Assembly: GCA_947179485.1 (NCBI GenBank)
Contig: OX359246.1
Span: forward strand, 744,001-808,000
DNA: 64,000 nt
Direction of reading: 5' to 3'
Origin: Allacma fusca
Lineage: Eukaryota; Arthropoda; Collembola; Symphypleona; Sminthuridae
Part shown: positions 668 to 60,907 of the stretch, one piece after another
Numbering within the stretch: the first letter of the stretch is position 1
Layout of the letters: every line of letters starts with the position of its first letter
Notes under the pieces: model-generated
Seen by the model: only the letters and a program-made list of their open reading frames with translations
What the model was told of the DNA's origin: nothing
Databases searched by the model: none
Translations under genes and position numbers: made by a program

Positions 668-694
668 CTCATCAGGCGCTTCAAATTCCGTCAT
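668..694 (-). CDS. Probable alternative first exon F of the left paralog
   Basis: This nine-codon exon, MTEFEAPDE, runs from an ATG in the context GGAAAATG to the strong donor GAG|GTAAGG, phase 0. It lies on the expected strand, outward from exon E by 16.7 kb, and has the same architecture as the other first exons. No right-arm partner can be seen because that position would fall outside the window. It is short, so the call depends on the strong donor, the acidic coding-like content, the shared phase and the context. A GC-richer stretch immediately upstream on the minus strand (GAGCCGGAGGCGG) could be part of its promoter or leader. Confidence 0.55.
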
Positions 695-1387
695 TTTCCG
701 CCTCCGGCTCAAGCAAGAATTAAAACAAGCAAAAGCGGAAAAGTCCAGGAGGGAACGGCACACGTTAAAGAATAATAATTGCGCTTTCCCAACTTTATCG
801 CTCCATTTAAGCGACCGGGGAAAAATTTTCGATTCCTTTGCGTCACCAATTTTGAAAGAAATTTTCCTTCAAATTTTCAACACTTGAAAAAAATTCTATT
901 TAAGTGCGCTACTAAAATTTTCCACTTTGGAAAAAAAATCCCTTAAAGTGTGTTACTAAAATTTTGCCACAAAATAAATTTTCAAAAATGTTTTTTCGAA
1001 AATTGTCCACTTAAAATTTATTTAGATTATTATGGGTTTAAATTTTCCCGTAAATTTTGGTTAAAATTGTCACTTAATTTGTGGTGTTTGCAATTTTTGA
1101 GGAGAATTTATTGATTAAAGACTGACCCGCAAATTTGAAAGCCAGTACTAATAGGATTTGAGAGGTGAGAATTGTGTTTGTGTTGGGAGCGAGTGTGAAA
1201 ATAGGGGGAATTCATGTTAACTGGGAAGCTTTTAATGTTGGTGGTGTTTATGGGAGTGCTGGATGTATTATTCACAAGTGCTCTATTTATGAGGAAATTT
1301 GGAGAACTGCTCTTGCTCCTTCAGAATTGAGCATGGACTGGCGTGCAATTGAGGCCTTACCTATAGTTTTCCCAGCTGGGTCCTGTT

Positions 1388-1431
1388 TCTCTCTCTCTCT
1401 CTCGCTCTGTCTCTCTCTCTCTCTCTCTCTC
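1388..1431. repeat. (CT)n microsatellite
   Basis: About 44 bases of CT dinucleotides with two interruptions. Confidence 0.9.
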
Positions 1432-3195
1432 GGTTTAGAATGCCTATAAAATTTCCCTCTATACTTGTCTCATATGCACTGCAAGCCGATTAGACCCCTG
1501 TACGTTACATACATCCTGCTCTTCCACAAGGAGGGGACCCGAGCAGAAGAAGATGAGGAGAGTGCGAGAGAGAAGAGTGCACAGAGCCTTCCAACAGACG
1601 CTTCTTTTATTTCCAAATCTCTCTCTCTCTATCCCAGCACTTTTCCCAGCAGGCCTCCCCAACCACACGCAGTTATTTATAGCTCCAACTTTTCCTTCAA
1701 ACTTGGCGCTCTTTCCCGCTGGAAGCTCACCCTCCTCTCTCCTATGTCTTTACATAATTATTATGTAAATATAGCCTGTCACTCTGAGCAGTTCTCCCTT
1801 CCCAAAGGGTCCATAATTTTTCTCGCTCTATTTGAATAACATAGCATCAAATTCCATCCAAATCTATACAATTTTTATAAGATTTTATCAGAAGAAAATT
1901 ATATGGAGAAAGTATATACTCTCTAAAGGGGGTCCCATATAATCTCTGGAGAGATGACTCTTTGGAGAAAGTGTTTTTCCCCCAAGGAGTCCTTTACAAA
2001 CAAAGCCGACTGTATATGGAGAAAGTGCTCGTTGGGCGGTGAAAGCATTTTTTTACAAATGAGAGCAAAAATACTTCAAATCTGGAGTATTAAGCAGAGG
2101 ATAAATGCTTGGCGTTCAAGAACAACATTTTTAAGGGATCTCTTAGTATTTTGAAATTCTACAGGTGCAAGGAAGCTGTACATGTAAAGAGATCAAGTTC
2201 AGCTCCTGATATCTTCATACAGGCCACTCTTCTTATAAGTGACCATTATAAGAGGACTTTCTCCATAGGTGAAAATATAATTAACATTTTTACCACAATT
2301 CACATCTCCCTCCGAAATATAACTTCCAAGATCTGTTTTTCCTTCTTCCAGAGCTTTCCCTGTAAAAGAAAGTTCAGTCCCTTATGAGACTGTAATTGCA
2401 AAGGGAAGTTTCACTGTGAACACTTTCCCTTTATTTTCCCAACAAATCGATGAGGGTTTTCAGGAGAGTCGGATTGGATCCCAAGCGTTGGCATTGTCAA
2501 GGTCCTTGACTTTCTCCCAGGCTCGTGTTTACATCCCCACAAACGCTTTTAAGCCAATGCTCGAGCCATCTCTACTTTCTCCCACAAACTAAATCCTTCT
2601 CGATCGATTTTCTCCTCCAAATTTCTAACAGAGAGGGCGCTGGCTACAAAGTTTCTCTACTCGTGCTTTCTCTTTTTATTTTTCCCTCAAAAACTTTCTC
2701 CAGCCCAAATATCTACTTCTGGGAGATTCTTCCCTGGAAATCCACAGCTGTGTAAGGAACGATTACTACACTTCCAGGGTCCCTTATGAAGAGATTTTAC
2801 TGTGCCACAAGCCTTAAATTTATTACAATCTTGGAGATCCTCAGCATTTGCTATAGAGATTTATCGCTGGAAAGGAGCGTCCCTTTGGAACCAGTCCACT
2901 ATAAAAGGGTCCCACTCTCCAGAGAGTTTGGATGTCTTCAACGTAGATTCCATAAGAACTGCGTTATAGGGAAGAGTCAGGCGTGAAATTTGCTGGAGTC
3001 AACTTTCAGACGATTGCTGTTGGGAGATTTGAAAGATAAGAGAAAGATACATCGGAGAGAGGGGGGAGATGCGGGAGATAAATTTTGGTGGTGAAAGTTG
3101 AGCTTGACTTTTACAAGGTTGGGAATGGTGTGAATGATTCGGAGGAGCAAGGATTTTACGTGTTGAGAATAAAGTATGGGAACATCACTTGATAA

Positions 3196-3294
3196 GTTTT
3201 GACGCCAGGAGATCTCCTCAACCATGTTTTTCCACCCCGCTCCAATAATTTCCTCCGCCTCGTCCGGATCCTCCTCAATCATCCTTCCCTCCAT
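3196..3294 (-). CDS. Candidate acidic first exon in the left E-F intron
   Basis: The frame begins MEGRMIEEDPDEAEEIIGAG and continues WKNMVEEISWRQ. It is strongly acidic, like exons A and F, and lies on the gene's strand. Donors are only moderate: ATG|GTTGAG would be phase 0, and TCAA|GTGATG (just beyond this interval) phase 1. No partner can be checked because the right arm is not covered that far out. Low confidence. Confidence 0.3.
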
Positions 3295-3391
3295 TCCCAG
3301 ACGCTGGTCATTAACTCACACTCCTCCGTCTTTCCTTTTACAACGTTATTTCAGAAGCAGCCGAGCTTGAGTAAGAAGATCTGGACTTAAA

Positions 3392-3437
3392 TCATTCATT
3401 CATTCATTCATTCATTCATTCATTCATTCATTCATTC
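3392..3437. repeat. (CATT)n microsatellite
   Basis: About 11 uninterrupted copies of the tetranucleotide CATT. Confidence 0.95.
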
Positions 3438-5048
3438 TCTGCACAGAAAGGGAAAAGGACGCTACGATCCAAGACAAAGTTTGCAGGGAACAAATCAAAT
3501 CTTACACAGATAACACTAACATTGCAATTCATTTCATAATAAATCTAACAAAATCTTAACAATTCATTGCTCCTGCATTTACTGTCCAATGAGATGGAAA
3601 TAATTCAAATCCTGGAATAATTCTCGAATTTTTCCCGCCACTTAATAAGAGGTCTTCTGGAGTTTGAATCTGGTTTAGAACTGCGGCGTGAAAGAAGTGC
3701 TACAAGAGAACGCTAAAATCTCAGGGATTCCAATTGGGCGAGAAAAATTCTTAAGATTTTCTCTTTTGTTTTCTCACGTGAAGAAAGTAACTCTTTGGAA
3801 GTGCTCTTTGGGGGTCTCTAGTTATACAAGCAACGACCTTTGTAATGCCAGATGAAGAGGTCGGGCGTGATCAAAAAGCCATAAGAGCTTTTTAGACGCA
3901 GCCCTCCTAGCATTTTTCGATTCTCATGCAATCCAATCGTTCACATCAATATATTCAATTATTACAGTCTGCTCTTGTTGTCGTTGCCCTTTTTTGCCGA
4001 ATTTTTAATAAAATTTTAGGCATTTGTCCAAATAATTTTTTATGGAGACATTTTTGGACAAGGGACTGACTCCGGGATGGAAGAAATTGACAGGGATGAA
4101 TTTCTAGTGCATTCAAACAAAAAATGAGTGGGATGGTTTTTAGGGGCATTGTGAGAGAATTTGGGTTCGAGAGTAGGAATCTGTCGGCAGGGAAAATACT
4201 GGAAGAATGTATGGTCTGGGATATAGTGGGAGTTGACTGTAGGGAGAGGGCTGATTTTTATTGAGAGGAGAATCCCTTGAAGAGTGTGTTTTTGTGTGGG
4301 AAGGAAGGAACGGGTGAAAAAAATACTTGGCTTTAGCATATTTTGGCCCTTGCTGCATTGCACCATTTTTACATGCCACACGCTTCGGCCCTATTTTATT
4401 TCTTGTCCCACTCCATTCCTTTCCCCTTCTCAGCCACATCTGATGGTTCCTTAGTCACAGAGCAGTCCTCCCATATGTAATGCGCTCGCGACCTTCATCC
4501 AATTTATCCTGTCGATCAAATCTATGGGCTGTGGTCGGGACACAAATTTATTCAAATGTTAATGTCAACATGATTTTAGTCCTAAGTTTATATTTAGATG
4601 TGTAATAAATTCTGGTTTTGGAATTAGTAAGGGGTTTCCTTCAGTTTTTATGCATTTATGGTATTTAAAGAACATTCTTATTGGCCCAAATTATTTTTAT
4701 AACATTTAATGCGCCGAAGGTAAGGGACTTAATTGTACAAAAATTTTATGGAGATTTTTCAAAAACAGGATTTTCTCAGAACAAATGATTTTGAGCAAAT
4801 CAAGCGTAAATTACTTCAAGATTTTCCGAAAATTAGATGGTTTCAGGTACAATTTTGGACAGGGTGTGAAAATTTTGCAGGGAGAATTTAATCGAAAATG
4901 TCTTAAAACTTTTTGTAATGTCTGGAAAATTTTTTGGTAATTAGGGAAACAATTTTATGTAATAGATAAATTTGGTGGGATTTTTTGGTGTCCGCCGGAA
5001 ACATATGTAGTCATATTTTAGTGTTTTTTTTGGTTTCTAACGGAAAAA

Positions 5049-17363: not shown

Positions 17364-17426
17364 GTCATCCTTGTCCTTTTTCTTCCCAAGTCCTCCGCCC
17401 CCTCCAGTGCTCACAGAAGCGTTCAT
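17364..17426 (-). CDS. Alternative first exon E of the left paralog
   Basis: This 21-codon exon encodes MNASVST, a run of five glycines, and a charged tail (LGKKKDKDD) ending at the donor GAC|GTAAGA, phase 0. The partner on the right (60842-60907) has the same start, a seven-glycine run and a similar tail ending KDD|GTAAG. The DNA leader TTTTGAAAA before the ATG is also shared. A second possible donor, TCT|GTGAGC, lies after codon 4 (MNAS) and is also phase 0. The right copy has an even better donor at the same place, so a 4-codon version of this exon is possible. Family not recognised. Confidence 0.75.
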
Positions 17427-24890: not shown

Positions 24891-25399
24891 AAACTGAAAA
24901 TCCATGCATCCGTTGATCATCTGCGGAGCTGTAATTGAATAGTTAGAGGTTAATTGTCCTATGCCCGTAAATATTTTATGAGAAAATTAGTACAACCGTT
25001 TTGCATTGCGCCAATGGAACCTTAAAACGTGACAATCCTCACATACCCCGGCAACGCCTCAGATCATGCGGTGCTCAAGACCTCTCCTCACCCAGCATAT
25101 ATTTTACACGTGTGTCCGCTTTACTAAGTGAAGCACGTCCATAAGAAAGGACGGAGCCATACGATTGTTGATGCTAGAAGCACGAACTGACGTTTATGGA
25201 AAACACAAGCCTTCCAATTCAATAAAATTTATCTCCCAGAAAATATTTTAATGGGGAAAACGTATTAGGAAATATTTAGTGCCTCAACAAACCCTGCAGA
25301 AAATATTTTCTCTAAATGTTTTCCACGTCAGCTTATACCTTAATGGTACTGGCATGTTAAATTTTGCTCCAAAAAAAGTGGTACCCCCATTTTCCCACA
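24891..25399 (+). promoter_or_regulatory. P450 upstream region
   Basis: About 500 bases between the 154-bp repeat array and the P450 ATG. It must hold the P450 promoter. No specific TATA/initiator pair can be called with confidence, although CATATATTTT occurs near 25097. Confidence 0.3.
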
Positions 25400-26875
25400 A
25401 TGCTGACATTAATTTTGTCAGTAATATTAATTGTACTGGGCTTAAGTTTTTTCAGTTCCAGGACGACCAGATCAAAAAGACCCAAAATTCCACCTGGGCC
25501 CATGGGCTTGCCAATATTGGGTTATTTACCATTCCTGGGGCAAACGCCCGCTATAAAATTGGCGGAACTCTCGAAAAAATACGGGGATCTTTTCACTTTA
25601 AAAATGGGTCACCAATTAGTGCTTTTTGTGAATGATGTGGAAAATATGAAGGAGATGGGTAGGATGGATAATTTTCTCGGACGGATCCAACTGGACATTA
25701 TGAAAGATTACCGACAATTTTGCGGCCTAAGTTATCTAGAAAAGGAGGGCTGGACGGAGTGGCGTCGTTTTACACTGAAAACCCTCAAAAAAGTGGGCCT
25801 TGGCCAGATATCCATGGAAAATTTGATCCTCGCCCAAGTCCAGGAATTCTGCAATTTTTTAAGTTCCCATCAAAATTGCCCCTTATATTTGCAAGAGTCG
25901 ATAGAAATTGCAACGTTGAATTCCCTCTGGTGCATTTTAACGGGTGAAAAATATGAACTGGATGATCCAGAAAAAAAGGAAATTTTGAAAACAATTACGG
26001 CCGGGATCACCGACCAGAACTTAATTGGCATTGTGGTTTTTTTGCCGTGGTTGGGGAAAATTTTCCCGAAAATGACAGGTTGGGCAAAGGCGGTAAAATG
26101 TTTGGAGAGCCCCATTCAAATGGCAAAAAACATTGTTGAAAAACACAAGGTCAAATATTCCCAAGGCTACGAAACCGATTTCATCGATTTGGCTCTCACC
26201 AAAATTTACGCCACTACAGATCCCAATTCGCATTTTTACCAGGAATTGGGCACCAAACATTTACTGTACACAATCCTGGATTTATTTTTTACGGGCTCGG
26301 ACGCTGTAAGTGCCACTCTGGGATGGGCGTTTTTGCTAGTGGCGACGTATCCCGAAATTCAGAGGAAAATTCAGACGGAGATTGACGATGTCATCGGAAA
26401 TTTTATCTTGCCCGCGATTCAAGACCGGGGGAAAATGATTTACACGGAGGCGTTTATGATGGAGGTCCAAAGGTTGTGTCCGATCAGTCCTCTAGGAATT
26501 ATGCACTCTTCCCTTGAGGATGTGGAATATCGAGGGTTTTTCATCCCGAAACGAACTGCGATTCTGTGGAACTACCATAATGTCCATCACGATGTGGGAT
26601 ATTGGGGGGATCCAGATACCTTCAGACCGGAGAGGTTTATTAATGCGGATGGAAGTTTAAGGAAAGATGATCATCTCATCCCATTTTTCACGGGGAAAAG
26701 AAGCTGTCCTGGAGAATCCCTGGCGATGAACGAATATTTTTTGTTCCTCGTCGGAGTTTTACAGAAATTTCGGGTGGAGTTGGCAGATCCGCATTTGAAA
26801 ACAGACTATTTGCCACGCTCGGCTTTTATTGTTCGACCCCCTTGCATTAATTTGAGGGTAGTGGGTAGAAATTAA
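25400..26875 (+). CDS. Intronless cytochrome P450, CYP2-clan-like microsomal monooxygenase
   Basis: A complete 491-residue P450 in one exon. It has an N-terminal membrane anchor (residues 1-19) followed by a basic stop-transfer and the proline-rich hinge PPGP (31-34). Other landmarks are the C-helix W-x-x-x-R (W118-R122), an I-helix (about 290-312), the K-helix E-x-x-R (E355-R358), PERF (410-413) and the haem loop F-x-x-G-x-R-x-C-x-G with Cys436. The length and the PPGP hinge fit microsomal family members, which oxidise lipophilic substrates with electrons from P450 reductase. The exact substrate cannot be told. The I-helix reads TGSDAV, so the usual Thr after the acidic residue is Ala302. 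The frame extends 12 codons upstream without ATG, and the first ATG (25400) gives the anchor, so I chose it. The gene lies antisense inside the left D-E intron. Being intronless, it may be a retrocopy or have lost its introns. Confidence 0.95.
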   Translation: MLTLILSVILIVLGLSFFSSRTTRSKRPKIPPGPMGLPILGYLPFLGQTPAIKLAELSKKYGDLFTLKMGHQLVLFVNDVENMKEMGRMDNFLGRIQLDIMKDYRQFCGLSYLEKEGWTEWRRFTLKTLKKVGLGQISMENLILAQVQEFCNFLSSHQNCPLYLQESIEIATLNSLWCILTGEKYELDDPEKKEILKTITAGITDQNLIGIVVFLPWLGKIFPKMTGWAKAVKCLESPIQMAKNIVEKHKVKYSQGYETDFIDLALTKIYATTDPNSHFYQELGTKHLLYTILDLFFTGSDAVSATLGWAFLLVATYPEIQRKIQTEIDDVIGNFILPAIQDRGKMIYTEAFMMEVQRLCPISPLGIMHSSLEDVEYRGFFIPKRTAILWNYHNVHHDVGYWGDPDTFRPERFINADGSLRKDDHLIPFFTGKRSCPGESLAMNEYFLFLVGVLQKFRVELADPHLKTDYLPRSAFIVRPPCINLRVVGRN

Positions 26876-27312: not shown

Positions 27313-27420
27313 CCGAATGAACTTGGCGGTTTTCTCATCCTGGATGCTGTCTTGTCTCCGATGCAGTCGTGTGCTTCGTTTCGCGGAAGCCGCAGCTCCG
27401 GCTGTGGGTCGTTGACTCAT
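27313..27420 (-). CDS. Alternative first exon D of the left paralog
   Basis: This 36-codon exon starts MSQR and ends KFIR at the donor CGG|GTGAGG, phase 0. From about residue 15 the sequence STRLHRRQDSIQDEKTAKF is identical in the partner exon at 52333-52440. Only the Ala/Gly/Ser-rich residues 5-13 differ. An in-frame TAA lies four codons upstream of the ATG, so this is a real start. The peptide is strongly basic and contains an R-R-Q-D-S site of the type used by basophilic kinases (inference). The conserved leader AGTGACATCGGA directly precedes the ATG. Family not recognised. Confidence 0.88.
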
Positions 27421-27475
27421 TCCGATGTCACTTTACTCCCTCAATCCGCTCAAACATTTTAACCGAAACAATGTC
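27421..27475 (-). promoter_or_regulatory. Conserved leader and core promoter region of exon D
   Basis: AGTGACATCGGA directly precedes the ATG and is identical in both arms. Weaker similarity (CGGTT ... TGAGCGG) continues for about 50 bases further upstream. A stop codon in frame (TAA) lies inside it. Confidence 0.5.
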
Positions 27476-30310
27476 CGCCCCAAAAAAATCCCTCACTCTG
27501 AATTTTTTCACTCTTAGTCATCACAATTTTATTTCAATCACACTCTAAAATCAAATTTCGCCAGGAATTTTTCGAAATTTTATACTTCACTGAATTAAAA
27601 AACCCAAATTTCTTTTTGTTAGAAAAATGTGAAAACTGTATCTGTCTTGTTTTAGTAATGACTTTATTTTCGTACAACAAATGTGCCTGTTTCGGAAGCC
27701 TATCTCGGGAATTACGTTTTGCATCGGAAACGTTTTTTCGATTAAAGATGCAATTTTTCATTAAATCGACCAAACACGATGGACGATTAAATTTTCTTAA
27801 ACAATATTTTATACGAAACTTGCCTCAAATATTTTAGCGCCAATAGAAACGCCTGTCTTTTAAAGGGTCTCTTACAGGAGGAGCAGACTGTATGAGAATG
27901 AGCATCTCCATTTCGGGTTACAATGGATTAATCAAGTGAAGCTGAATTTGACTCATAATTTGACGCCCCTGTCTCCGCATGGGAGCTCATCCTGAGGGTA
28001 ATTAAATCCGTAGCCAAATTGTTATTTGTCCCGCGGAGTCACGCAATCATTTTCCACGAGGGCCGAGTCGTCCTATCCCTCCCAAATAAATTCCTATCAG
28101 AAAACTGAACCTCGTGTCATATAATCCCAAATCCCCTTCCCAACTCTCATTCCTCATGGCATTTTTATTTTGCCTAGGTGAGCCATTCCTCGAAATTTTC
28201 CGCCCCATCGCGTTCCCCTTCCACAGCAAAAATTTACAAGCAAGATTTACAACCACAAGGTACAAATGACAAGTCTAATTATTATTGGGCAAAACCCAAT
28301 TGCGTTTTCACCTCTCAAACATCCTTCTACAACATTTACATAAAAGTCACTTGTCCCACTTGTGACATATCCTAAAAACATTGTTTTTCAAATGTGTGCA
28401 AAAATTTTGAAAAATGCTAAAATATTTGCACAAAATTTGCACAAATTTTTACCTTAAAATTTGCAAATTTGGGGGGTAAAATGTTTTATGCAAAACATTT
28501 GCACCATTGGGAAAAAAATTTAGAGCAAAATTTTATTTTAAAGTGAGAATGTGTTTTATGAAGCAAAAAAATTAACATTGTGGGAATACGGTTTTGCGCA
28601 AATATGGTGTTTATATTGAGAGAATCCTATTGGAAAGGGTATTTTTGCATCATGAGTTCAGACTGGCTGGTCCTCAAAATTGGTCGTATTTAGAGAAGCC
28701 AAACGGGAATTCATTGTTTCACATTTTAGATATCCATCCCGTTTTTGGCCGCTCAGCCCAATTGTTTTTCCATCAATTTCTATGCACAACCAGCGTTTCC
28801 TTCTATTTCTCACGAGGACCCCGCTCAGACCCGCTGGGAAAATGAGAACACTGGGAATGAAATAGGAAAACCCTTTTGTTTTGCCAAAATATCTTGACTC
28901 AATCAACTCAGGGAATGAAAATCAATTGAATAAACCTTTTTTGCTCCGGGGAAAAAGCAACTGACTCTGATTCGAGGGGAAAAGGGTCAGACAACCAGTC
29001 AAATTTATTTTATTTTCCCTAGATCCTGCTCCCATCTTCCCATTGGCTGAGTCCAATTTCCTCAATAAAAATCCCCTGAAAATTTATTATTCCCGCCATT
29101 ATCCAATCTCTCCAAATTCCAAAATTTTCTGTGACCAGTTTGCCCAGATTGAGGTAAATGTTTGAAAACAATTCACCTCAAGGGTTTTATACGGTTTAAA
29201 GAAAAAAGTTGCAAAATATTTGGGCAAATTTTGCGGGTAGAAAATTATTGACTTAAATTATTTCCACTCAAGCTTCCAATTGATCCCTTATGATAAAATA
29301 TACATTTTAAAACATTCCACTCTGCGTCATTCCTGGTTGCTCCCTGTTTTAAATATAGGAAAATTGACTCTGCTTTTGTATCTCCTGGGTCTGGGAATTG
29401 TCTGGGCTTGAGAGGGTTTGAAAGTACACAATCCCTGTCATGGACCCATGTAGAAGCAAATTTTCTTCATTGGGGCAAATAACGAAGGAAAATTTCATTT
29501 CTCAATTTTTCCCCTTAAAACCACATTGTTTTTAAACCCCGAAAATTGTGTACACTCAGCAGCACCCTTTTAGCAAATTTTCCACTGTATTTTGTAAACC
29601 ATCCCTTTTGCACTCCAGGTTTTTAGGTGGGTTAATGTTTCTGAGGCGCTTTTATCTCCCCCGAATTATGCAAAGTGGGGTTAAGAGCTAAAAAGTGGAA
29701 TGTGAAAATGCAATGAATTTATTCGACTCGAAGGTGAATTGACCTTGGAACTTTGTCGATCTAAAGTCGGGACTCGTTATAAGGGCTGTAAAATATAATC
29801 CTGAAATAAGTTTCTGCAAATTTACGGGGAAAAAGTTGTTTCCCAAAATTTTAACGGTTTTTAAAAATGGGGTTTAAAAAAAATGCTATAAGGTTCGCTC
29901 GCGCAGAGATGCGACTGTGCTTTAAATACAGCTCTTGCTCTGAGTTCCGCAATGGGATCCATTCGCCCTGGAAATAATTTTTTTCTTTTTTCCCACCTTA
30001 ATAATTACGGGTGGAAAATTTTCTGTCCCAAAAATTACACCATTTTCCCGATAAAACTTTTAACCCATATTTTCACAAGTGCTTTTAAATTTATGGGCCC
30101 ATTATACAACGGAACTTTGCTTCCACAGCACCACTTCCCACACCAAAAAAATATTTACGGTGCATTTTGAAGATAAAAAAGTTTCACTGTATCCATCAGT
30201 CCCGTTTTGTGAAGACGCAATTTTTAATGGACTTGTGGTAACGGAAGAAAATTTCCTCCGTAAATTTATATCTAGTCGAGAATTGACTGAGAAAAAAATC
30301 ACCTGGGAAA

Positions 30311-37662: not shown

Positions 37663-37761
37663 CCTGGTAGTGCCCAAAAGGAGCGCGTCCATTTCCCCCT
37701 CTGCTGCAACATTGCCAGCTCGCGTGGTCACTTTGCAGCTTCCCGCGTCGTACATTGCCAT
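37663..37761 (-). CDS. Alternative first exon C of the left paralog
   Basis: This 33-codon exon begins with MAMYDAGSCK and ends in EGEMDALLLGTTR at the strong donor AGG|GTAAGC, phase 0. Its partner at 49503-49601 on the other strand has the same length, and both flanking motifs are identical. The middle (about residues 11-21) varies but stays in frame. Upstream homology continues on DNA (CATTCAAAT...TTCCCG) but is offset by a single-base indel, so it is non-coding leader and the ATG is the true start. The start context GCCATGG is strong. No signal peptide or transmembrane segment is seen. The protein family is unknown to me. Confidence 0.85.
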
Positions 37762-37802
37762 GGCGTCGGCCCTGGTACCAGAGTCGCGGGAATATTTGAA
37801 TG
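37762..37802 (-). promoter_or_regulatory. Conserved 5' leader of exon C
   Basis: This stretch upstream of the exon C ATG aligns with 49461-49502 on the right (CATTCAAAT, then TTCCCG, then GCCG(A/T)CGC next to the ATG). Indels put it out of frame with the coding exon, so it behaves as an untranslated leader or core promoter. Confidence 0.5.
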
Positions 37803-38041
37803 TCACACTTTAAAATATGGAAACTTTTCGAATCCTCTGGATTCCCCAAGAGAAACAGTAAATACTTTCACTTGAGATCAAAATTTGCGAATTCAAGGCG
37901 CGAATTTCAAATAAAAGCGCGCACGTTTTCAAAATTTAACTGAATTAATGTATTTTTGGCCTGGAACTTTGAGTAAGGAGAGGCGCAACAATTCCGGTTG
38001 AGGGATAGAGCGGAGAGGCTGGAGTGGATTGACTGGGAGGG

Positions 38042-38062
38042 AATTCCCTCACTGTCCCTCTC
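38042..38062 (-). promoter_or_regulatory. Promoter-proximal element upstream of exon C, left copy
   Basis: On the minus strand this reads GAGAGGGACAGTGAGGGAA followed by TT. It is identical over 21 bases to 49184-49204 on the plus strand. It lies 0.28 kb upstream of the exon C ATG, against 0.30 kb on the right. The sequence is purine-rich and GAGA-like, so some similarity could reflect low complexity, but the position and exact match argue for a shared promoter element. Confidence 0.5.
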
Positions 38063-39185
38063 CCTCACTCTCTGCTCACTCTCTTGACACTAGAGTTTGA
38101 TTTTTCACGGAACGGATTTTTTGAGGAAGGCTTGTTTAGACACTCCGCACCTTGGGACGCTTATTTAAGCATTAACGAGATTTGAGAGGATTTAGCTTAG
38201 CTTTTCTTATCCTCCCTTTTCTCTCTCTCTCTCTCTCCCCTGTAAACCCACTCTCATCCTTATGCTCTGTCCAGGACTGAAATGAGAAATTGTCTCTCTC
38301 TCTCTTGGACTTGACTGTCTCAGGATGGAGGAACGAATCTCCTCATTTCACATCTCGCTAACCCAACAAATGACGCTTTCCATCCTCATAGTCTCCAATT
38401 ACTTTCCCTTACGGCCTATACCCAGCCCAGCTATTATCCTTGGAGTTACGTCTCGACCTTTTTACAACAGACTCAACAGTCCGGCTCCTTCAATTTTAAC
38501 CCCAATCTCAAATTTTTACAGTAAATCCTCCTTCTCCCACAACCCTTTTTTTACAGGTGCTCGGAATATCTCTTGCCCGGAATTTGAATGAGAATTGATG
38601 GTGTAATTTGAGGAAGTGGAGTGAACTCAAGGGAACGCTCTTTATTGGAAAAGTTTCAGAGTCCTGGGAAAAGTTTCAAGGAGGAACAGGTGGGTGGTGA
38701 GGAAAGGAAGCCTTCCCAAATATCTCCCATCAATAAACATAGTAGACTCTCTTAACAACAGGTCTTGAGCCTCTCCACCAAAGAAAAAAGTTGCTTTTAA
38801 ATCAAATCTAAAATTCCCATTCCAGCTTTGAAGAAACAGATTGAGAAAATAAAAGATAAAAAAAATTACAAGGAAATGGGAATGATCTAAAAGCCTTGTG
38901 GAACTCTAAATGTGCGGAACTACAAGGGAATTATCACCCAAGTAAAATTTTATTGTCCGGAGTTGAATCCCTCGTGTAAATTAGGATGGGATTCAACTGT
39001 TGATTTAAGTTCAAGAAAATTATTCCCTGTGCACCAAAAAGATTATGTCTACAGGGGATTTTGGTTACAGTATCACCTCTGGGAGACATACAATTTTGGT
39101 GGGAAATTTGAAATTTTTGGGTCAAAATTTTGGTGATATTCTGATATTTAGAGTTTGTAATCAGAGGCTGTGTGAGAACTTTCAC

Positions 39186-39560
39186 CGGGAGAAAGTCCTT
39201 TGGAGAAAGTCCTTTGGAGAAAATCCTTTAGAGACAGTCCTTTGGAGAAAGTCCTCTGGAGAAAGTCCTTTGGAGAAAGTCCTTTGGAGAAAGTCCTTTG
39301 GAGAAAGTCCTTTGGAGAAAGTCCTTTGGAGAAAGTCCTTTGTAGAAAGTCCTTTGGAGAAAGTCCTCTGCAGAACGTCCTCTGGAGAAAGTCCTTTGGA
39401 GAAAGTCCTTTGGAGAAAGTCCTTTGGAGAAAGTCCTTTGGAAAAAGTCCTTTGGAGAAAGTCCTTTGGAAAAAGTCCTTTGGAAATAGTCCTTTGGAGA
39501 AAGTCCTTTGGAAAAAGTCCTTTGGAGAAAGTCCTTTGGAGAAAGTCCTTTGGAAAAGGG
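39186..39560. repeat. 15-bp minisatellite array
   Basis: About 25 copies of the 15-base unit CTTTGGAGAAAGTCC with few substitutions. Because the period is a multiple of three, long frames open on both strands (up to about 235 codons). They encode only the 5-residue periodic repeats W-R-K-S-F-G-E-S-P-L-E-K-V-L type and K-D-F-L-Q-R-T-F-S type. These are repeat artefacts rather than genes. Confidence 0.95.
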
Positions 39561-42694: not shown

Positions 42695-42763
42695 CTCGTT
42701 CTGCTCCTCGTTCCCATCCGAGTCCTCATACGCCCGGTAATAGCCTTCCTCTTGGGCTGCCAT
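42695..42763 (-). CDS. Alternative first exon A of the left (minus-strand) paralog
   Basis: This 23-codon exon opens with ATG and ends in phase 0 at the donor GAG|GTATGT. It encodes a very acidic peptide containing YYRAYEDS near the middle and EEQNE at the donor. The same motifs at the same positions occur in the 23-codon exon at 44770-44838 on the other strand, with about 15 of 23 residues identical. Equal length, equal phase and conservation across two divergent copies are the evidence for coding. It is the innermost exon of the left arm and starts about 2 kb from its partner, so the pair forms the head-to-head core of the locus. The protein family is not recognised. The peptide is probably a cytosolic N-terminal extension, because no signal peptide or membrane segment is visible. 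The downstream common exon must lie left of this window. Confidence 0.8.
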
Positions 42764-43444: not shown

Positions 43445-43468
43445 GCAGACGTCACATTTTTTGACTCG
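43445..43468 (-). promoter_or_regulatory. CRE-like conserved element, left copy
   Basis: Read on the minus strand, the element is CGAGTCAAAAAATGTGACGTCTGC with one extra A relative to the right copy at 44094-44116. The core GACGTC is the centre of a cAMP-response/bZIP site. It lies about 0.68 kb upstream of the ATG of exon A, the same distance as the right copy from A'. Confidence 0.6.
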
Positions 43469-44093: not shown

Positions 44094-44116
44094 CGAGTCA
44101 AAAATGTGACGTCTGC
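44094..44116 (+). promoter_or_regulatory. CRE-like conserved element, right copy
   Basis: This is the mirror partner of 43445-43468. It matches over 23 positions with one gap and carries the same TGTGACGTCTGC core. It lies about 0.67 kb upstream of the A' ATG. A bZIP/CREB-type factor is the obvious candidate binder (inference). Confidence 0.6.
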
Positions 44117-44769: not shown

Positions 44770-44838
44770 ATGTCATCCACGGACGAGGAATATTACAGAG
44801 CTTACGAGGACTCGGAGGTGGATGAGGAGCAAAACGAG
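44770..44838 (+). CDS. Alternative first exon A' of the right (plus-strand) paralog
   Basis: This 23-codon exon starts in an excellent arthropod-style start context (ACAACAACCATG) and ends in phase 0 at GAG|GTAGAG. It encodes an acidic, tyrosine-containing peptide (MSSTDEE, then YYRAYEDS, ending EEQNE). It pairs with the exon at 42695-42763 on the opposite strand in length, phase and about 15 of 23 residues. The donor has GTAGAG rather than GTAAGT, so it is weaker than the other donors in the array. The frame stays open past the donor, but the homology to the left copy stops exactly at the GT, which supports splicing there. Family and function are not recognised. Transcription runs outward to the right. 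Confidence 0.8.
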
Positions 44839-47369: not shown

Positions 47370-49183
47370 GTAATCTTTCCCATCTTTTCCATTCATCTTC
47401 CCTTCGGAATGCATATTTTCCGGGCAGATGTCCAAAACAATTTGAATTTTTCCCCTGTAATCCCAATCTGAATGCTTTATGTATGCATGTACATGCATTT
47501 GGGTGAATCTCTGGGAGAAATTGGACACTGCTCAGTCATTTACTTCAAATATTTGGACGACTTTCAAAAATCCGGTATAGTTTATATATCTTCAAAGGAT
47601 TTATGCGCGGAAGAACAATACGGTTTGCAAACATTGGGTGGGAAATTCAAAATTTTAAAGATAAAACTAAAATTTCTGAAAAAGTTTCCCGAATTTAAGG
47701 GCTAAAGTTATAATCCTTAAATATTTTACATGGTTTTGAAAATTTAAGCCTTCATGCAAATACGGTTCAAAAAAATTCAAATTTTTAAATTGAGCGAAAT
47801 CTCGGATACATCGATGCGCGTCAATTCTGGTCGTAATGTTTTCAAAATTGGGAAACATTTTATCTAAATGGTTTAAAAACCATTAAAATTTCAAAATTTT
47901 TTTGAATTAAAATTTTAAAAGAAAAAATGTGAAATACATATTTTTGAAAAACAAAATTTATTTTTGTTAGCGGTCATGGTATTGGTACAGCTAAAAAAAT
48001 CCCTTTGTAAGAGCGCCTTTATAGAGAGAGATCTAGCTTCATGGGAATTTCCTCCACAAAAGTGGTTTTCCATTGAAAACCCCTCTAAAATTTGGAGGAT
48101 TCCAGCGAGAGCCCATGAATTCGTTTGGATATGGATGTGACCGCAGCCCTCTCCTCTGGAAATCCAATCTCAATTAGTCAAGCCATTCTCTTTCCCCATT
48201 GAATTTTACATTAGCGAGACAGGGAAAGCACAGGGAAGAGGTCCCCTCTTCGCAAATGATTTTCACCCGAAACCCCGTCCAGGTACAGCACTCCGACTTT
48301 TGCGTCAAATATCCTTCCCCGGAGCGAAACCGCTATTTAAATTGACACAGAGGCTTCTTGAAAGACAGTCAGTCATTGGCCTTGTCAATTTGCATTCTGA
48401 ATAGCATTTCCCCGAAAACCTCTTTATAGCGGCCCCCTTTAAAAAAATCCATATTTTAAAGGTAAGCTCCACTAAATTTCCCCCAAAAAAATAAACAAAT
48501 TTCAAAAAATGCCGAAAAATAGCAAAACCTCGATACAGCGGCGTTTTTGTCCTTGGTAAATGTATATAGCTTTAGGGGCAGGGAAATTAAAATTTTATTG
48601 CAAAATTTCTTTGAAAATGGAAACAATGCCGCATAGAGATTTCATTGCATCTGGGAGAATTTCATTCATTCAATATTCAACAAGTGGTCATTCAAGGGAA
48701 CGTCTAGCTTCCGACAATTCCGTATCCCTCTCTGGCAATTTTTATGCCCATGTTAACAAATGCAAGCCCAAAATTCGAATTTTCCCAAGAGATTGCCCCA
48801 AAGTGAGTGCTAGAGATAGGAGTCACTCCGGAGTGCTTTCACTCATAAAGATACACTCGAAAACTTCCAGGGAATAGAGTCGAACCTCTTTATAGGGACT
48901 TGGGCAAACATTGGGTTAATTGTAGGGAATTTCTAGAGCGCCGCTGTAACAAGGATCCGATCTTCGGCCCCTAGTCCGAAGTCCTATCAAAGGATCCGTT
49001 ACATGGAAGGTCTACTATGTCACAGGAAGGTGAAGAGCTTATTCGGATGACAGAGGGAAAAATAACAGGATGAGGTCTTCATTTGTTAAAGCATATATTT
49101 ATAGGGACATCTGAAATGAGGAGAGCCGTTCCTCTAATCTTAAGTGAAAAGAGAGCTCTGACGGAGAGCGAGAGGACGATGGA
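47370..49183. other. Right B'-C' intron and exon C' promoter region
   Basis: Non-coding. It contains one short inverted-repeat element (48875-48963), with the inner word CGATACAGCGGCG near 48.53 kb possibly marking an older one. The 105-residue frame at 48560-48877 has no domain. Confidence 0.45.
48875..48963. mobile_element. Short inverted-repeat element (MITE-like)
   Basis: Starts TAGAGTCGAACCTCTTTATA. The far end reverse-complements to GATCGGATCCTTGTTACAGC. The shared TCG(A/G)(A/T)CCT core and spacing fit the family, but the inner parts differ. Confidence 0.4.
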
Positions 49184-49204
49184 GAGAGGGACAGTGAGGG
49201 AATT
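49184..49204 (+). promoter_or_regulatory. Promoter-proximal element upstream of exon C', right copy
   Basis: This is the 21-base identical mirror partner of 38042-38062. It sits in a CT/GA-rich tract that is partly self-complementary (AGTGAGGGA ... TCCCTCACT). Confidence 0.5.
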
Positions 49205-49460
49205 TTCCTCTCACTTCCCTCACTCTTCACTCTCTGCTCTGTCCCTGCACATCTGCTTAAACCCATTGGAAGTTCCTCTTTCAAAAGTCCCGCCAATTCA
49301 AACAGTTTTTACAATTTTTTTGAAACGAGCGCGTTTTTTAAAAATCCCGCCAAATTTGAACTTAACTTTGTTCTCCGTGGGAAGTTTCTCAGCGCCTCAC
49401 ATTTTCGCGCGTTTGAAGGCCTCGCAGTGTGTGGGAAGTGGGAACCAAGATTTCAGACCG

Positions 49461-49502
49461 CATTCAAATTTTTCCCGGCCAATTATCCCTAGCGCCGTCG
49501 CT
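49461..49502 (+). promoter_or_regulatory. Conserved 5' leader of exon C'
   Basis: Right-arm partner of 37762-37802, with the shared blocks CATTCAAAT, TTCCCG and GCCG(T/A)CGC directly before the ATG. Confidence 0.5.
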
Positions 49503-49601
49503 ATGGCAATGTACGACGCGGGGAGTTGCAAATTGACCCCGCGAGCCGGCGCTGCTGGACCGGAGGGTGAAATGGACGCCCTTCTTTTGGGGACTACCTG
49601 G
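49503..49601 (+). CDS. Alternative first exon C' of the right paralog
   Basis: This 33-codon exon reads MAMYDAGSCK at its start and EGEMDALLLGTT just before the donor TGG|GTAAGC (phase 0). About 25 of 33 residues match the left exon C, including 10 identical residues at the start and 12 near the end. The variable centre is rich in Pro, Gly and Ala. The open frame extends upstream of the ATG, but the leader homology with the left copy is out of frame there, so translation should start at this ATG (GCTATGG context). It probably supplies one of several interchangeable N-termini for a protein whose body lies right of the window. Confidence 0.85.
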
Positions 49602-49902
49602 GTAAGCAAATTTTTGTAACGTGAAGCGCGTCAGAAGTTAATTTTCCAATTTTTTGTGAAAGCGCGGGAAAATTTGAAAACGTGAATTTACAAATTTTAG
49701 TAGGTTTTTTTGTAGGGAAATTTTTTGCAAGGATTCTATAGGCTGGGGGCTATAGCGAGAGTACACTGTATCCGATGCCTTGAGGTGTGACTCGTCGAGA
49801 GTAAATTAAGAGGAAAGGGCATAAGTTTTAATTGCTCCGTAAGACAATATGCTAGCAGGGCCTGGAGTGAGTGGGAACGGCAGAAATGGTGTGGGTCGGG
49901 GA

Positions 49903-50027: not shown

Positions 50028-50029
50028 TA

Positions 50030-50611: not shown

Positions 50612-52277
50612 GGAGCGAAACTACTTTCTCCCATGTCTTTGAACTGAAAGCCAACTGTCACGACGGAGTGCATCTCAGGGACGCAATCAAAGGTGAAGTG
50701 GTTGTTTAGTTTTTGGAGGAAACTCTCGGAAAGAATTCTCTTGTTCTCAAAGATCTGCTGGGATAATTCTAAGAGAGAGTCTGTTATATCCAGGTTTTAC
50801 TGTTAGTTCCACCTGAAATGTTTTTACTACACTGAAGATCCAATAAAGGAAAGTGGAGTACTTTACCCTTGAGCTTTTATCTGTATGGTTTGTAGATTAC
50901 GGCCTTTTTGTCTTATATGGACCAGTTGGGTCTGGATACAGTCAACCCTTGCTATAACGACCCTTTGCGTGTATATTTGTATTCGGACCATTTCCGCTTT
51001 CACTAGTCGCTTCGTTAGAGAGCCTCCGAGGAGACCTCTCTCATTTGCATTCTTAAATAGTCCGAAAAAAATAACTCTGCTTGGGACACACTCAATGACA
51101 AACAAAAAGCGGGGCTGGAGGTGAATTTTAAATACAAAGTTTACAGTGGACATTTATTAGCAAGGCTGTATTTTTATAGTTTGCACGTTTTGTGTATATA
51201 TGTAGAACGTTGGGATGACTTGATCTCATTTGGTTTGAGAGAGGAAAAAATTTATTGTGTTTTGACAAGGGATGCCGTAATGATTTGGACGGAGGCCCAT
51301 CCACTGCAATGCTAATGTTAGGGCTGAAAGACTCAAAGTGAGGAATGAGTAGAAGCGAGAGATTCAGAAGGAACAAAATTATACGAAGGTTTTTTTTCTC
51401 TCTTGTGTCTTCTGGAGGAAGGAGTTTGCGCGGGAAATTCCGCAGAAAATACGATGAGCTTTGGGAATTTTCCCTCAAACACACATTTCCCCACAAGTCT
51501 CTCAACCATTAGGGAGGCTCGGAGGAGCAATGCAATTTTTCACTTGTGGCTCCATTTATCAAAGAAACATCATTTTCTCGGATCATATTCTGACGTCTGA
51601 CAATTTCCACAAAAATATTATCAATTGAGGATCTTTAAAATTTTTAGTGAATTTTTAAAAGAATTTTGAAAACAATTTACTACTAAAGTTAAATTATGTG
51701 AAATTTTTAATCGGCTGAGAAAAAAAATTAAATTGATAATTTTGCTTTGAGTCAAAATTTTACAAGAGAAATTTTTACCCATTTTTTGGAATTATCCTGG
51801 AAACAAATTTTTTAATTTGGAAATATGTGCGAAAAAATATTTTTTCACATCGAAATTGAAATATTGTGACCAATTTTGTTGGTTTGTGAAATATTAACTT
51901 TTATTTAAATTTATACTGAAAATTGTGCGTTATGATGAGGTTTTGCTTCATCGAAAAAACAGACGTTTTTGGAAGTGGTTTTTAGGGTGAAATTTTATTG
52001 CGAGCTTGAGTAAACAAAAGTGAAGGAAAGAAGCGGGGCAAAGTGAAATTAGGTGGTTTTACAGTACATTGTGGTTAGTGATGCAACCCTATGGAATAGT
52101 AGTTGTTGCAGACTGTCATACAAAATTTCTATTGTGTGTAAGCGTAAAAAATGTGAATTTAGGGGTTCAAGTGAGGAATTGAATACAACTTCGATGCAAA
52201 CTATTATAAAAGATTTGGCAAATTTTGAAAAAAAGGGTGGTGTTTTAAATTGTGTGTGAGAAAATTTGTGGAGTGGA

Positions 52278-52332
52278 AAATCGGTTTGCATTGAAATGAG
52301 CGGGTGATTCGGAAAAATGAAGTGACATCGGA
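52278..52332 (+). promoter_or_regulatory. Conserved leader and core promoter region of exon D'
   Basis: Right-arm partner of 27421-27475, with AGTGACATCGGA next to the ATG, TGAGCGG further upstream, and an in-frame TGA. Confidence 0.5.
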
Positions 52333-52440
52333 ATGAGTCAGAGGCAAAAGGCCGGTGCGGCTTCTTCTGGGAAACGAAGCACGCGATTGCATCGGCGACA
52401 GGACAGTATTCAGGATGAGAAAACCGCTAAATTTATTCGG
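52333..52440 (+). CDS. Alternative first exon D' of the right paralog
   Basis: This 36-codon exon begins MSQRQKAGAA and ends KFIR at CGG|GTGAGA, phase 0. It is the best conserved pair in the window: 22 consecutive residues from about position 15 are identical to the left exon D, while synonymous positions differ. That pattern is what purifying selection on a coding exon gives. An in-frame TGA lies just before the conserved leader AGTGACATCGGA, so the ATG is the start. It is a basic N-terminal segment with a possible kinase site (RRQDS). It is only 2.7 kb from C', compared with 10.2 kb between C and D on the left. Confidence 0.88.
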
Positions 52441-52789
52441 GTGAGAATTGTATTTATAATTAGTCATTAAGCTCGATGGAGAAGAACCCATGTGGGGTTT
52501 CGGCCACTTTGGCCCGAGTAATTGGCCAAGTTGACCTGGCGGCCATTTTTGAAGTTAAGTGGCGGCTTGTTGGCCAATTTTGACAACTACCCACTTGTAG
52601 GTAAAAACATTTTAGGGAATAGTAGCTATAAGTATATTGCTACAAACAGTTTTGCCCGCCTATAAGTTTGGCCACATTTTTAGCTTGACTTGTGTAGACT
52701 GGCGAAAATATTTGTTTCCTTTCAAGCCACTGTCAAAGTTTGGCCGAGTTAAGATATCTGACCAAAATCAAGGCAAACATTTAAAAATC

Positions 52790-57668: not shown

Positions 57669-59507
57669 TTCCTTCTCAAAGTAAAAATCTCTGTATAAAA
57701 TTCCCTTACAATCCAAACCGTCTCAAAATTTACAAAAAATAATGCACCTGAAACATTTTGCGTTCCAACAAAAAAAAAGTTAAATTTGGACCCTTTTACT
57801 TTTCCCGAGAAAATATTTGTAACATTTTCCCTCTCTTGACCAGGAACAGGGTTCTGGGAGAAAAAGAAGGAATTGCCAAAAGCGGGACTGGCTCTGACAG
57901 TTTATCTTCGGATGTGGCTTCAAATTTACACCCGCGACAAGCCTTACACAGTGCAGTGCCAGGTACAGGGGGATATCTCTATAGCGTCTGCTCTCCGAGG
58001 ATTTCCCGAAATTTCCGATGCGAAATTTCCCATCGTGCGGAAACTAATCCTTTGACAGGGAGTTCTGGAGCAAAAGCCATCCTGTCATAAGGATGCTTGA
58101 CTGTTCACATGCGAAACTCTACATTTAAAAGATGGGGCAGAGAAGCTTGGACAGAGATCAAAGGCGAGGTGAATGACCCGCATCGGCTAATTGTTCGAAA
58201 AGGAGCGGAGCGAAATAATGAGGACGGGAAGGGAATGTAATTTTTAGGAGGTGAGAGTGAGAGGGAAAAAGAGAGAGAGAGAGAGTTCGTAAATGTAATT
58301 CTTTCAAGGAACAGCCTCTAACTGAATTACAGGTGTTGGCATTAAATTTCATGTCGAATCTCAACTCCGCTCTTCATCAATATTCAGTGAACGAATTTTC
58401 GTTCCATACCATTAGCCTAGCTCTGAAGGAAAAAGCTGTTTTTTTCCGCAAAATATTTAAGGAAAAGAGCCCCTTTCTCCTCCTACGTCGATAGAACTTC
58501 TGGTGTATGCATTTACATGGAACGCTACTATTACAATATTGAATACGCATCAAATAAATAGGACAATAATAAATTGGAAAATATTTAAGTGAATTGTGCA
58601 ATTTCCAGGGAGGAAATAACCCCTTTTTTTCAAAGTCTGGGAAAATTTAGGAACCTCTGTTCTGGAAAATCTGAGGGTTTTTACTGACTAGGTGATAAAA
58701 AATCGCGAATGTGTGTATACCTGGCCATGGTCCAATTCCAACTGAGTCTAGTCTACCCGAGTGACGGTTCCTTTTATAAATGACTTCTTCGTCCCTCTTT
58801 ATCTTCCCTAACTCAGTCCTAGTATTAAAAATCCGTGGGGTTTACAGTCAGACTTCGCTACAAAAGCCCCTTTCATTTTTTTGGCTCCCACAAAAAATTG
58901 ACGCAAATTGAAAATGACGGCGGAAGGAGAGTCTGAGCATATGCAAGGATTCTGTTCTATTGTAGGAAATGTAGTGTCTTGGAGGGGTCCGGCATAGCCA
59001 GGTTTAAATTTGATCCAATTTTCCCTGTCGGTCTTTTTATTAGCAATTTGGCGCTCGTAATAACTCTTTATTTGAGCCTGGTGGGGAGAAAATGAAAATA
59101 AATTCTGGAAGAAAATTTTTGACATTTGTTCATTCCGGGCAGAGTAAATTTTTTTATAACGTTCCATTGATACAATTTTCTTTAGAGCATAACTCAAACT
59201 GAGTGTATGTAATTATAGTTCCATAATACGAAAAAAGAGACTTGCTCTGAATTTAAAAATTGCTGGCAATCGGTACATTTAATTCCCAGCGCCATCTTCT
59301 GTGCAGAATTCACACTGTTTATGGGAAAAGCCTGAAGCTTGCATTCCTTTCCAGTAGAGCTTCTGCAGTCCTGGTTTCAAATCTTGAGCATCTTGAAGGA
59401 TTAAACAAATAAAAAACGAATTTATTTTTAGCGGACTGTAAGTGGGTGAAAGATAAATATGTATTATAAGGAACGTACATTTTTATTCGAAGAAATCTTA
59501 ACCTGGA
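57669..59507. other. Right D'-E' intron, part 2
   Basis: Non-coding. It has a GA run (58269-58285) and one inverted-repeat element (58843-59005). No exon was recognised. Confidence 0.45.
58843..59005. mobile_element. Short inverted-repeat element (MITE-like)
   Basis: Starts TACAGTCAGACTTCGCTACA, and its far end reverse-complements to AAACCTGGCTATGCCGGACC followed by CCTCC. The ends share CT(T/G)(C/G)GCTA and the following CCCCT spacing. A 129-residue minus frame spanning it is a chance frame. Confidence 0.45.
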
Positions 59508-59640
59508 ATGGCGGGCACAACTGCTGTAAAAATTAAGGAATTAAAACGTGACAAATTAAGGGCGGAACAATTTCTTGAATTGTGTTCCAAACCACATGGT
59601 TCAGCAGGAGTTGAATTATTTACAGGGTGTAAGGTTGGTT
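59508..59640 (+). CDS. Candidate extra first exon or small coding exon
   Basis: The reading frame begins MAGTTAVKIKELKRDKLRAE and continues through QFLELCSKPHGSAGVELFTGCK. It then meets a phase-0 donor AAG|GTTGGT, or an alternative phase-1 donor GGGT|GTAAGG slightly earlier. It lies on the strand and in the interval (D'-E') expected for another alternative first exon. The KIKELKRDKLRAEQFLEL segment is a plausible amphipathic helix. No left-arm partner was found between 17.4 and 27.3 kb, so it may be unpaired or spurious. Confidence 0.35.
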
Positions 59641-60841
59641 ATAGAGAAAGCGAACTTTCTCCATGGACTAGCGGCTCAAGTGGGGAAGACAATTCCCTGA
59701 AGAATTTCCCTCGAGTCAGTTGGCACGTTTTCGTTAATCTAATGAAGGCACTTACTTTCTCCAGTGTGTAGAGTGGGGCTTCCTTAAAACGAATACTTTA
59801 TATTGACTCCTTTTATTTTCCAATATACAAAACTCAATTACAGAATATTCAGCTGGAATGAAACATTTCTATGTATTTTGGAGAAAACTCCTGACTATAT
59901 GCTCACAACAGTTGGAGGTAAGGAAGAACAGAGCTGTGTAGCACGTATGTATGTAAATGCTAAAAAAACCTTAGATCCTGCTCATGGATAATTTCCGAAT
60001 TGAGCCCCATACAAATATTTTGTCAAAGAAAATCCTAAGCGATACTCCTTTGAAATTTAAGATTCCCAATAGATTGGAAAGACGTTAAGGAATTTTTGTA
60101 TTAACTCCCACCCTAAGGGCACATATCCCCTTCCACCAAAATTTGACACCATCAAAAATGTAGCTACACATATGCTTGGACATGCACTACGGAGAAAGTT
60201 GGATACAGAGACGGAGCTCGGGCAGACTTGCAGTCAGGGTTTTATTATTAGGACTTTAGCTCAAGAGAAAAGGGAACAGTCCTGGAGTCGGGTTTGGACC
60301 TCCAAGCGTGCACAATGTCCCGTTTGGCGCTCTTAAAAATTAGCTTCAAACCTCTACGGACTTAATCTCCAAGTTATTTTGTCAAACAGTGAATTATTTT
60401 CGCAGTGAAATTTATTTTTATTTTGGTGAAAGTCTTCAATTTTACTGAAATTCCGCTTTATTGGGATTTAAGAAAAGACAGGAAGTCAGAAAAAGCTGGC
60501 ACTGTATTATAGAAGGTGAATCCCTTTAAAGGATTTTTATTAGTGAAGGCTCGTTTTTTAAGGACAAGATTACATTCGTCATTAGTAGCAATTTCCACTG
60601 CATCAAGGTTAGCTCCAAGGAAGTTAAATGTCTCCAGTGAAAATCCACTTTCTCCAAGTGTACTTTCTCCAGTGAAAGTTTGTTTTCTCCAGTGAAAGTT
60701 GACTTTCCCCAGTGAAAGTTTATTTTCTCCATTTACAATTTCCTTAAAAATCCTAATTCCGGGAATAAATTTTAAATCCAAAAATGAACTGAATAAAATT
60801 TGTGTAAAAACCTCAAATCGTTCGTAAACCCCATCTTGAAA
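59641..60841. other. Right D'-E' intron, part 3 and exon E' promoter region
   Basis: Non-coding. It contains the 18-bp repeat cluster at 60640-60735 close upstream of exon E'. Confidence 0.45.
60640..60735. repeat. 18-bp imperfect tandem repeat
   Basis: Five copies of a unit near TTTTCTCCAGTGAAAGTT. The word ACTTTCTCC is the complement of the core of the 15-bp array at 39186-39560 and of scattered GGAGAAAGT words elsewhere. It lies about 110-200 bases upstream of exon E'. Confidence 0.75.
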
Positions 60842-60907
60842 AATGAACGCCTCAGTAAGTACAGGGGGTGGGGGTGGGGGTGGAATGGGGAGGAAGCATA
60901 AGGATGA
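60842..60907 (+). CDS. Alternative first exon E' of the right paralog
   Basis: This 22-codon exon encodes MNASVST, then seven glycines written as a GGGGGT microsatellite, then MGRKHKDD, ending at GAC|GTAAGT, phase 0. It pairs with 17364-17426 on the left arm. The tail charge pattern is conserved but the glycine run differs by two codons, as expected for repeat slippage. An internal TCA|GTAAGT after codon 4 is a near-perfect donor and also phase 0, so two isoforms are possible. It is the outermost exon seen on the right arm. Downstream exons must lie beyond 64 kb. Confidence 0.75.

Follow-up and report, generated by a model that had tools for sequence, protein, structure and literature searches.

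The mammalian dipeptidyl-peptidase-like proteins (DPLPs) DPP6 and DPP10 are the nearest described parallel to a gene pair in the springtail Allacma fusca, whose two members stand head to head and each carry an ordered array of small candidate first exons. The pair occupies, and extends beyond, a stretch of 64,000 nucleotides (the window; GenBank assembly GCA_947179485.1, contig OX359246.1, positions 744,001 to 808,000 of the forward strand). In mammals, alternative first exons precede common exons 2-26, giving N-termini that act differently on Kv4 (PMC3973911, PMC3366920), and alternative promoters set these different N-termini of DPP6 and DPP10 on a common core (PMC3366920, PMC3973911, PMC9409431). 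Nine N-terminal variants are described over DPP6 and DPP10 together (PMC3973911). Through such variants, A-type potassium current is tuned in individual neurons. The two mammalian genes are separate and do not form a head-to-head pair.

Several parts of these proteins have been assigned effects on the channel. The MNQTA sequence of DPP6a and DPP10a blocks the Kv4 pore (PMC3366920, PMC9409431), and redox control of the mammalian blocker depends on Cys-13, which the block itself does not require (PMC3968176). Acidic residues beside the membrane raise conductance (PMC3366920, PMC3973911, PMC9409431), while binding to Kv4 is carried by the transmembrane/juxtamembrane segment (PMC9409431). At the position of the peptidase nucleophile, DPP6 has Asp and DPP10 has Gly (PMC4873792). 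The fly orthologue of DPP10 binds rat Kv4.3 and changes how that channel gates, keeps the catalytic Ser and has peptidase activity; the same paper suggests that insects may have only one such gene (PMC4873792).

Paired first exons in mirror order

Coordinates are given in window numbering, in which negative values and values above 64000 lie in the flanking genome; the window is C8:744001-808000, C8 being its contig, and the assembly searched comprises 393 Mb. Open stretches running from an ATG to a donor site were compared between the minus strand left of 43.9 kb and the plus strand right of it. An original prediction, made from the letters of the window, had paired four tiny minus-strand ATG exons with four on the plus strand in the same outward order and with shared phase. 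The scan recovers exactly these four distinct pairs (A to D), all in phase 0; its remaining rows are alternative starts or frames of B and C, and the three other strand combinations yield 0, 0 and 0 pairs. The four pairs are real, but they are not the whole series. Once the scan is extended with 200 kb of flank (100 kb per side), as far as the common exon, pairs E and F are added in the same outward order, for a total of six pairs that all end in phase 0, and the control orientations again give 0, 0 and 0 pairs. The common exon that had been foreseen beyond each window edge is found as well: exon 2 lies just outside these edges, at -7591..-7803 (minus strand, left gene) and 81763..81975 (plus strand, right gene).

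The innermost pair, exon A, is encoded at 42695..42763 on the minus strand (MAAQEEGYYRAYEDSDGNEEQNE, donor GTATGT) and at 44770..44838 on the plus strand (MSSTDEEYYRAYEDSEVDEEQNE, with the weak donor GTAGAG); the two starts are 2,006 bp apart, head to head, and 15 of 23 residues are identical. Exon B follows at 37663..37761 (minus, MAMYDAGSCKVTTRAGNVAAEGEMDALLLGTTR) and 49503..49601 (plus), with 26 of 33 residues identical, and exon C at 27313..27420 (minus, MSQRPTAGAAASAKRSTRLHRRQDSIQDEKTAKFIR) and 52333..52440 (plus), with 32 of 36. Exon D, at 17364..17426 (minus, MNASVSTGGGGGLGKKKDKDD) and 60843..60908 (plus, MNASVSTGGGGGGGMGRKHKDD), is laid out as a head, MNASVST, a glycine linker and a charged tail. 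Exons B, C and D have a third copy on contig C1; MNASVST is unchanged in all three copies of D, and the length of the glycine linker varies. Exon E reads MTEFEAPDE at 668..694 (minus) and MTEFESPDE at 74067-74093 (plus), the latter to the right of the window. Both copies of exon F are outside the window, at -2216..-2290 on its left (minus) and 79843-79917 on its right (plus).

The six pairs score 155, 128, 112, 82, 78 and 45, against a median of 24, a 95th percentile of 32 and a maximum of 41 for the best score in each of 100 residue shuffles. Pair E is the weakest on peptide score alone, and is backed by its position in the order and by a conserved upstream block. The chance of six pairs sharing one order is 1 in 720. 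Over exons A, B, C, E and F the mirror copies are identical at 102 of 126 residues. In contrast, the seven codons before the ATG agree at just 9 of 42 residues (5 of these 9 at exon C), and identity in the intron from position +7 is near random (47 of 144 bases). An upstream in-frame stop occurs within 59 codons in both copies of A, C, D and F, and in the left copy only for B and E. Conservation that begins at the ATG, together with these stops, is the appearance expected of first exons. By themselves, the first-exon peptides have no PDB, Pfam or text match that would name the gene.

Common exon 2 and the catalytic residues

Exon 2 opens in phase 0 with ELVAATPSQRNWKG, which matches a 14-residue stretch of DPP6, encodes a membrane segment, and has its 3' splice site directly before the E of ELV in both copies. 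With phase 0 at the end of every first exon and at the start of exon 2, each of the six can be joined to exon 2 in frame. In a translated comparison of the flanks, 13 further conserved blocks follow exon 2 on each side, the mirrored common exons spanning -7.6 to -16.5 kb and 81.8 to 88.9 kb. Joined, they translate into 815 residues with the sequence of an S9B dipeptidyl-peptidase fold; among the best 60 of 73 PDB matches, whose listed names are DPP6, DPP10, DPP4, FAP and bacterial relatives, the top one is DPP6 (7ukg, E 1e-149, over residues 25-800 of the joined query). The juxtamembrane/transmembrane segment is of DPP6 type, with ELVAATPSQRNWKGILIALLVI aligning to 22 DPP6 residues.

The peptidase domain has lost its catalytic residues. 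The nucleophile motif reads WGRNYGG (Ser to Asn) in both mirror copies and in a further copy on C1, and the position of the catalytic His is likewise Asn in all three; both of these residues are present in an active DPP4-like peptidase. Judged from sequence, both genes encode a DPP6/DPP10-type DPLP. This assignment comes from the membrane segment of exon 2 and the lost catalytic residues, not from the ectodomain, for which the bit scores (best 60 of 73 PDB matches) are 471.5 for FAP, 464.3 for DPP10, at most 461.8 for DPP4, in an entry that includes some membrane region, and 449 for DPP6 (1xfd).

That the proteins are instead secreted or membrane regulators of peptidases, and not Kv4 subunits, is unlikely. 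It draws on an ectodomain as close to FAP and DPP4 as to DPP6, on the fly orthologue that is still an active peptidase (PMC4873792), and on the fact that a Kv4 role is here suggested by sequence likeness. Yet the DPP6-like part is precisely the transmembrane/juxtamembrane segment that binds Kv4 in mammals (PMC9409431), and both catalytic Ser and His are gone.

The DPLP genes of the mirror pair have relatives elsewhere in the genome, where searches with exon 2 find six places and searches with the catalytic exon seven. WGRNYGG is present in the two mirror genes and at C1:74.17-74.24 Mb. An intact nucleophile Ser (WGWSYGG) is found at C1:73.48 Mb (C1:73479613), C8:1.79 Mb (C8:1785183) and C9:31.63 Mb, and Gly at this position (YGWGYGG) at C8:37.81 Mb (C8:37808653). 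Besides the left gene, five genes have a DPP6-type exon 2, two of them with the intact Ser and one with Gly; at two of these loci exon 2 and catalytic exon are paired by position. If the three Asn copies share one loss, the nucleophile would have been lost at least twice in this genome. One lineage holds copies that are dead by two substitutions, Asn and Gly, beside copies with an intact nucleophile motif, making the transition from peptidase to channel subunit comparable within a single genome.

Conserved noncoding blocks, a third copy and the age of the array

The prediction described introns and intergenic DNA as otherwise unalignable, which is too strict: relaxed blastn of the two genes gives 35 rows, 29 in mirror orientation and 6 not, and includes noncoding blocks near the first exons; low-complexity repeats account for some of the rows. 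Upstream of each exon A is a 17-nt CRE/ATF-like element (resembling sites of the cAMP-response-element/activating-transcription-factor class), AAAAATGTGACGTCTGC, at 43445..43461 (minus, 682 bp before the start) and 44100..44116 (plus, 654 bp before it). These are its two exact matches in the 393-Mb genome, with 0 for the reversed control.

Further blocks lie beside exons B, C and E. Upstream of B, a putative promoter is conserved at 37762..38083 (minus) and 49164..49502 (plus); the alignment of this region, 38083-37567 against 49164-49698, reaches 64% over 549 columns with exon B included. Directly upstream of C, the conserved blocks are 27421..27505 (minus) and 52247..52332 (plus), in an alignment of 27505-27308 with 52247-52445 that is 73% identical, exon C included. 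Before exon E, noncoding blocks at 1285..1714 (minus) and 72772-73327 share TATAAATA (left copy at 1681) and a donor-like GTAAGG site (left copy at 1360). Because TAG precedes this site in phase 0 in both copies, the block would at most be a putative noncoding 5' leader. Between exon F and exon 2, a block at -4196..-4135 is 73% identical to 80258-80348 over 94 columns and 79% identical over 62 to C1:74188928-74188989; the pair of right copy and C1 is not among the matches listed. Two other candidates for additional first exons, 8998-8891/66700-66807 and -4090/80244, have broken frames and are noncoding blocks.

In the copy on C1, exon 2 is preceded by B, C, D and F, all on a single strand and ordered as in the mirror genes. 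Whole-genome searches with B, C and F each return only the three copies, two in the mirror pair and one on C1. Over the exons common to all three, the number of synonymous substitutions per site (dS) is 1.06 between the mirror copies, compared with 2.98 and 1.94 to C1, near saturation; in synonymous as in replacement distance, the mirror copies form the closest pair. A protein tree from two exons groups the three copies with a support of 0.94 and places them with DPP6 on a long branch; within this clade of a small tree, the mirror pair has a weak 0.37. As the mirror copies are closest to each other and C1 keeps the ordered exons, the inverted duplication would postdate the split between C1 and C8, and the array, at least as regards B, C, D and F, would predate both events. 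By this sequence comparison most of the first-exon series predates the inversion. An ancient inverted duplication of one gene with many promoters, as originally proposed, is supported by the six ordered pairs, the common exon 2 and the mutual closeness of the mirror copies.

The first exons are constrained as strongly as the gene body. For 775 codons of the gene body, dS between mirror copies is 0.99 and the number of replacement substitutions per site (dN) 0.084, with uncorrected proportions (pS and pN) of 0.549 and 0.079; for 126 codons of exons A, B, C, E and F the values are 1.26, 0.099, 0.61 and 0.093, exon D being excluded for its unequal length. Exon 2 stands apart, with synonymous changes at 13 of 53.8 sites between mirror copies versus 278 of 476.2 elsewhere (Fisher 2e-6). 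Its synonymous divergence from C1 is reduced too (29.5 of 53.5 versus 91.5 of 124.3 for the left gene, p 0.023; p 0.062 for the right), so constraint explains part of this low divergence. Splicing constraint or gene conversion may be responsible.

Two independently placed copies of a dispersed gene, in place of one inverted duplication, are very improbable. Further family copies do occur on C1, C8 and C9, and one noncoding block, about 130 bp long and 72% identical, that closely follows exon B in the left and the right gene (36339-36465/49901-50031) lies in opposite orientation relative to the genes, which is wrong for a simple inverted duplication. Nor is the duplication extended by mirrored matches in the flanks at -44 kb and +135/+145 kb, which resemble reverse transcriptases. 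However, the two genes are adjacent and head to head, have the mirrored 17-nt element in common, and diverge less from each other than from the C1 copy. It is scarcely credible that the small exons are internal and chained in series into a long N-terminal region behind one promoter per gene, at A: lengths that are all multiples of three and phase-0 3' ends permit chaining in principle, but every exon starts with a conserved ATG at which coding conservation ends, A, C, D and F have upstream stops in both copies, B, C and E each have a conserved upstream block of their own, and the mammalian homologues join alternative first exons to exon 2 (PMC3973911).

The window also contains features unrelated to this arrangement. 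On the plus strand, an intronless frame of 503 codons with a complete cytochrome P450 domain (PF00067, E 4.4e-89; 25364-26875) is recorded as lying within the left gene, antisense to it, in the interval from first exon B to first exon C; by its coordinates it lies just beyond C. A tandem array at 39188-39558, in the intron that separates A from B in the left gene, consists of 26.6 copies of a 14-bp unit with 93% match; several overlapping frames stay open across it by chance. In the 64-kb window, scans for Rfam families and tRNAs find nothing. Outside it, translations that resemble retroelement reverse transcriptases by eye flank the gene pair on both sides; the mirrored matches at -44035, 135921 and 145333 are of this kind and were rejected as signs of a larger inverted duplication.

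Proposed channel tuning and comparison with known systems

The locus very probably consists of divergent DPLP paralogues that arose by inverted duplication and carry six alternative N-termini on a common exon 2, tuning Kv4/Shal channels. Such a DPLP would cross the membrane once, with a short N-terminus in the cytoplasm and a dead peptidase domain on the extracellular side. Each of the small coding first exons A to F most likely has its own promoter and would be spliced in phase 0 onto the one exon 2, which starts with ELV and holds the transmembrane segment. Promoter choice would then alter the cytoplasmic N-terminus only, and different cells most likely use different N-termini to set inactivation, recovery and conductance of the Kv4/Shal A-type channel. 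In this history, an earlier duplication would have placed the third copy on another chromosome, and the inverted duplication would have copied the whole array. A candidate partner exists: one pore stretch encoded in the genome is strongly Kv4-like (83% over 63 residues), and 12 further matches stay at 64% or below. This comparison used a Kv4 pore stretch because the Pfam Shal model has no match here or in the control genomes and is thus uninformative.

Two proposals belong to this reading. An invariant MNASVST on a glycine linker of variable length suits a tethered blocker, and exon D might work as a ball-and-chain pore blocker like DPP6a and DPP10a. The final residue before exon 2 is acidic in A, D and E and basic in C and F; in B it is Arg, Arg and Trp. 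Acidic-ending starts (A, D, E) could differ from basic-ending ones (B, C, F) in their effect on conductance. Bolder, and on balance doubtful, is the view that in exon D arthropods have their own version, inherited or convergent, of the inactivation ball of DPP6a and DPP10a, that at least 16 N-termini from the two mirror genes and the third copy serve an apparently single Kv4 pore gene, and that acidic or basic residues at the junction act as a conductance switch. If exon D is such a counterpart, the Kv4-helper toolkit of alternative first exons would be as old as bilaterians or have evolved twice.

Several observations weigh against these readings, beyond the misoriented block after exon B. 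By ectodomain alone, DPP6 is not the nearest relative. The donors of right A, left D and right F are weak, with generic scores of 1.3, 1.5 and 1.1. Exon D lacks the exact MNQTA motif of the mammalian blocker, having MNASVST in its place, and contains no Cys, hence no equivalent of Cys-13, while the terminal Trp of right exon B breaks the acidic/basic pattern. Compared with the C1 copy, the blocks upstream of B and C align barely beyond the exon edges. A genome search with exon A returns the two mirror copies only, with nothing in the third copy at E 10 or less, and no exon E is found in the 36 kb read on C1; the six-exon series is thus established for the mirror pair only.

Compared with mammalian DPP6 and DPP10 (PMC3973911), the springtail genes have the same general plan: alternative first exons that are candidates for joining a common exon 2, variable cytoplasmic N-termini, the ELV..QRNWKG junction, a lost catalytic Ser, and two paralogues that keep alternative first exons. 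The retention of a whole promoter series by both duplicates, first regarded as rare, is less exceptional than it seemed, since alternative first exons occur in each of the two mammalian paralogues, which have exon 1a in common (PMC3973911). Unlike in mammals, there are six first exons in each mirror gene and at least four in the third copy, none of their peptides is recognisably a mammalian one, and the Ser has become Asn instead of Asp or Gly. Fly DPP10 is likewise an arthropod DPLP with a membrane segment of the Kv4-binding type (PMC4873792), but it retains Ser and activity and is perhaps a single gene, whereas the springtail has six exon-2 loci. The KChIP genes resemble this system as Kv4 auxiliaries that combine several transcription starts and variable N-termini with a shared core (PMC3973911), although they encode unrelated EF-hand proteins. 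The open literature searched contains no description of an arthropod DPLP with alternative first exons, which is weak evidence of absence, subscription papers being mostly outside that search. Each N-terminus survives in two or three copies amid scrambled introns, and if an arthropod shares the mammalian plan with more variants, set in mirror arrays, it would offer a natural test for the N-termini that matter. Genes of this kind are known from mammals; the mirrored arrangement with six ordered alternative starts appears to be new.

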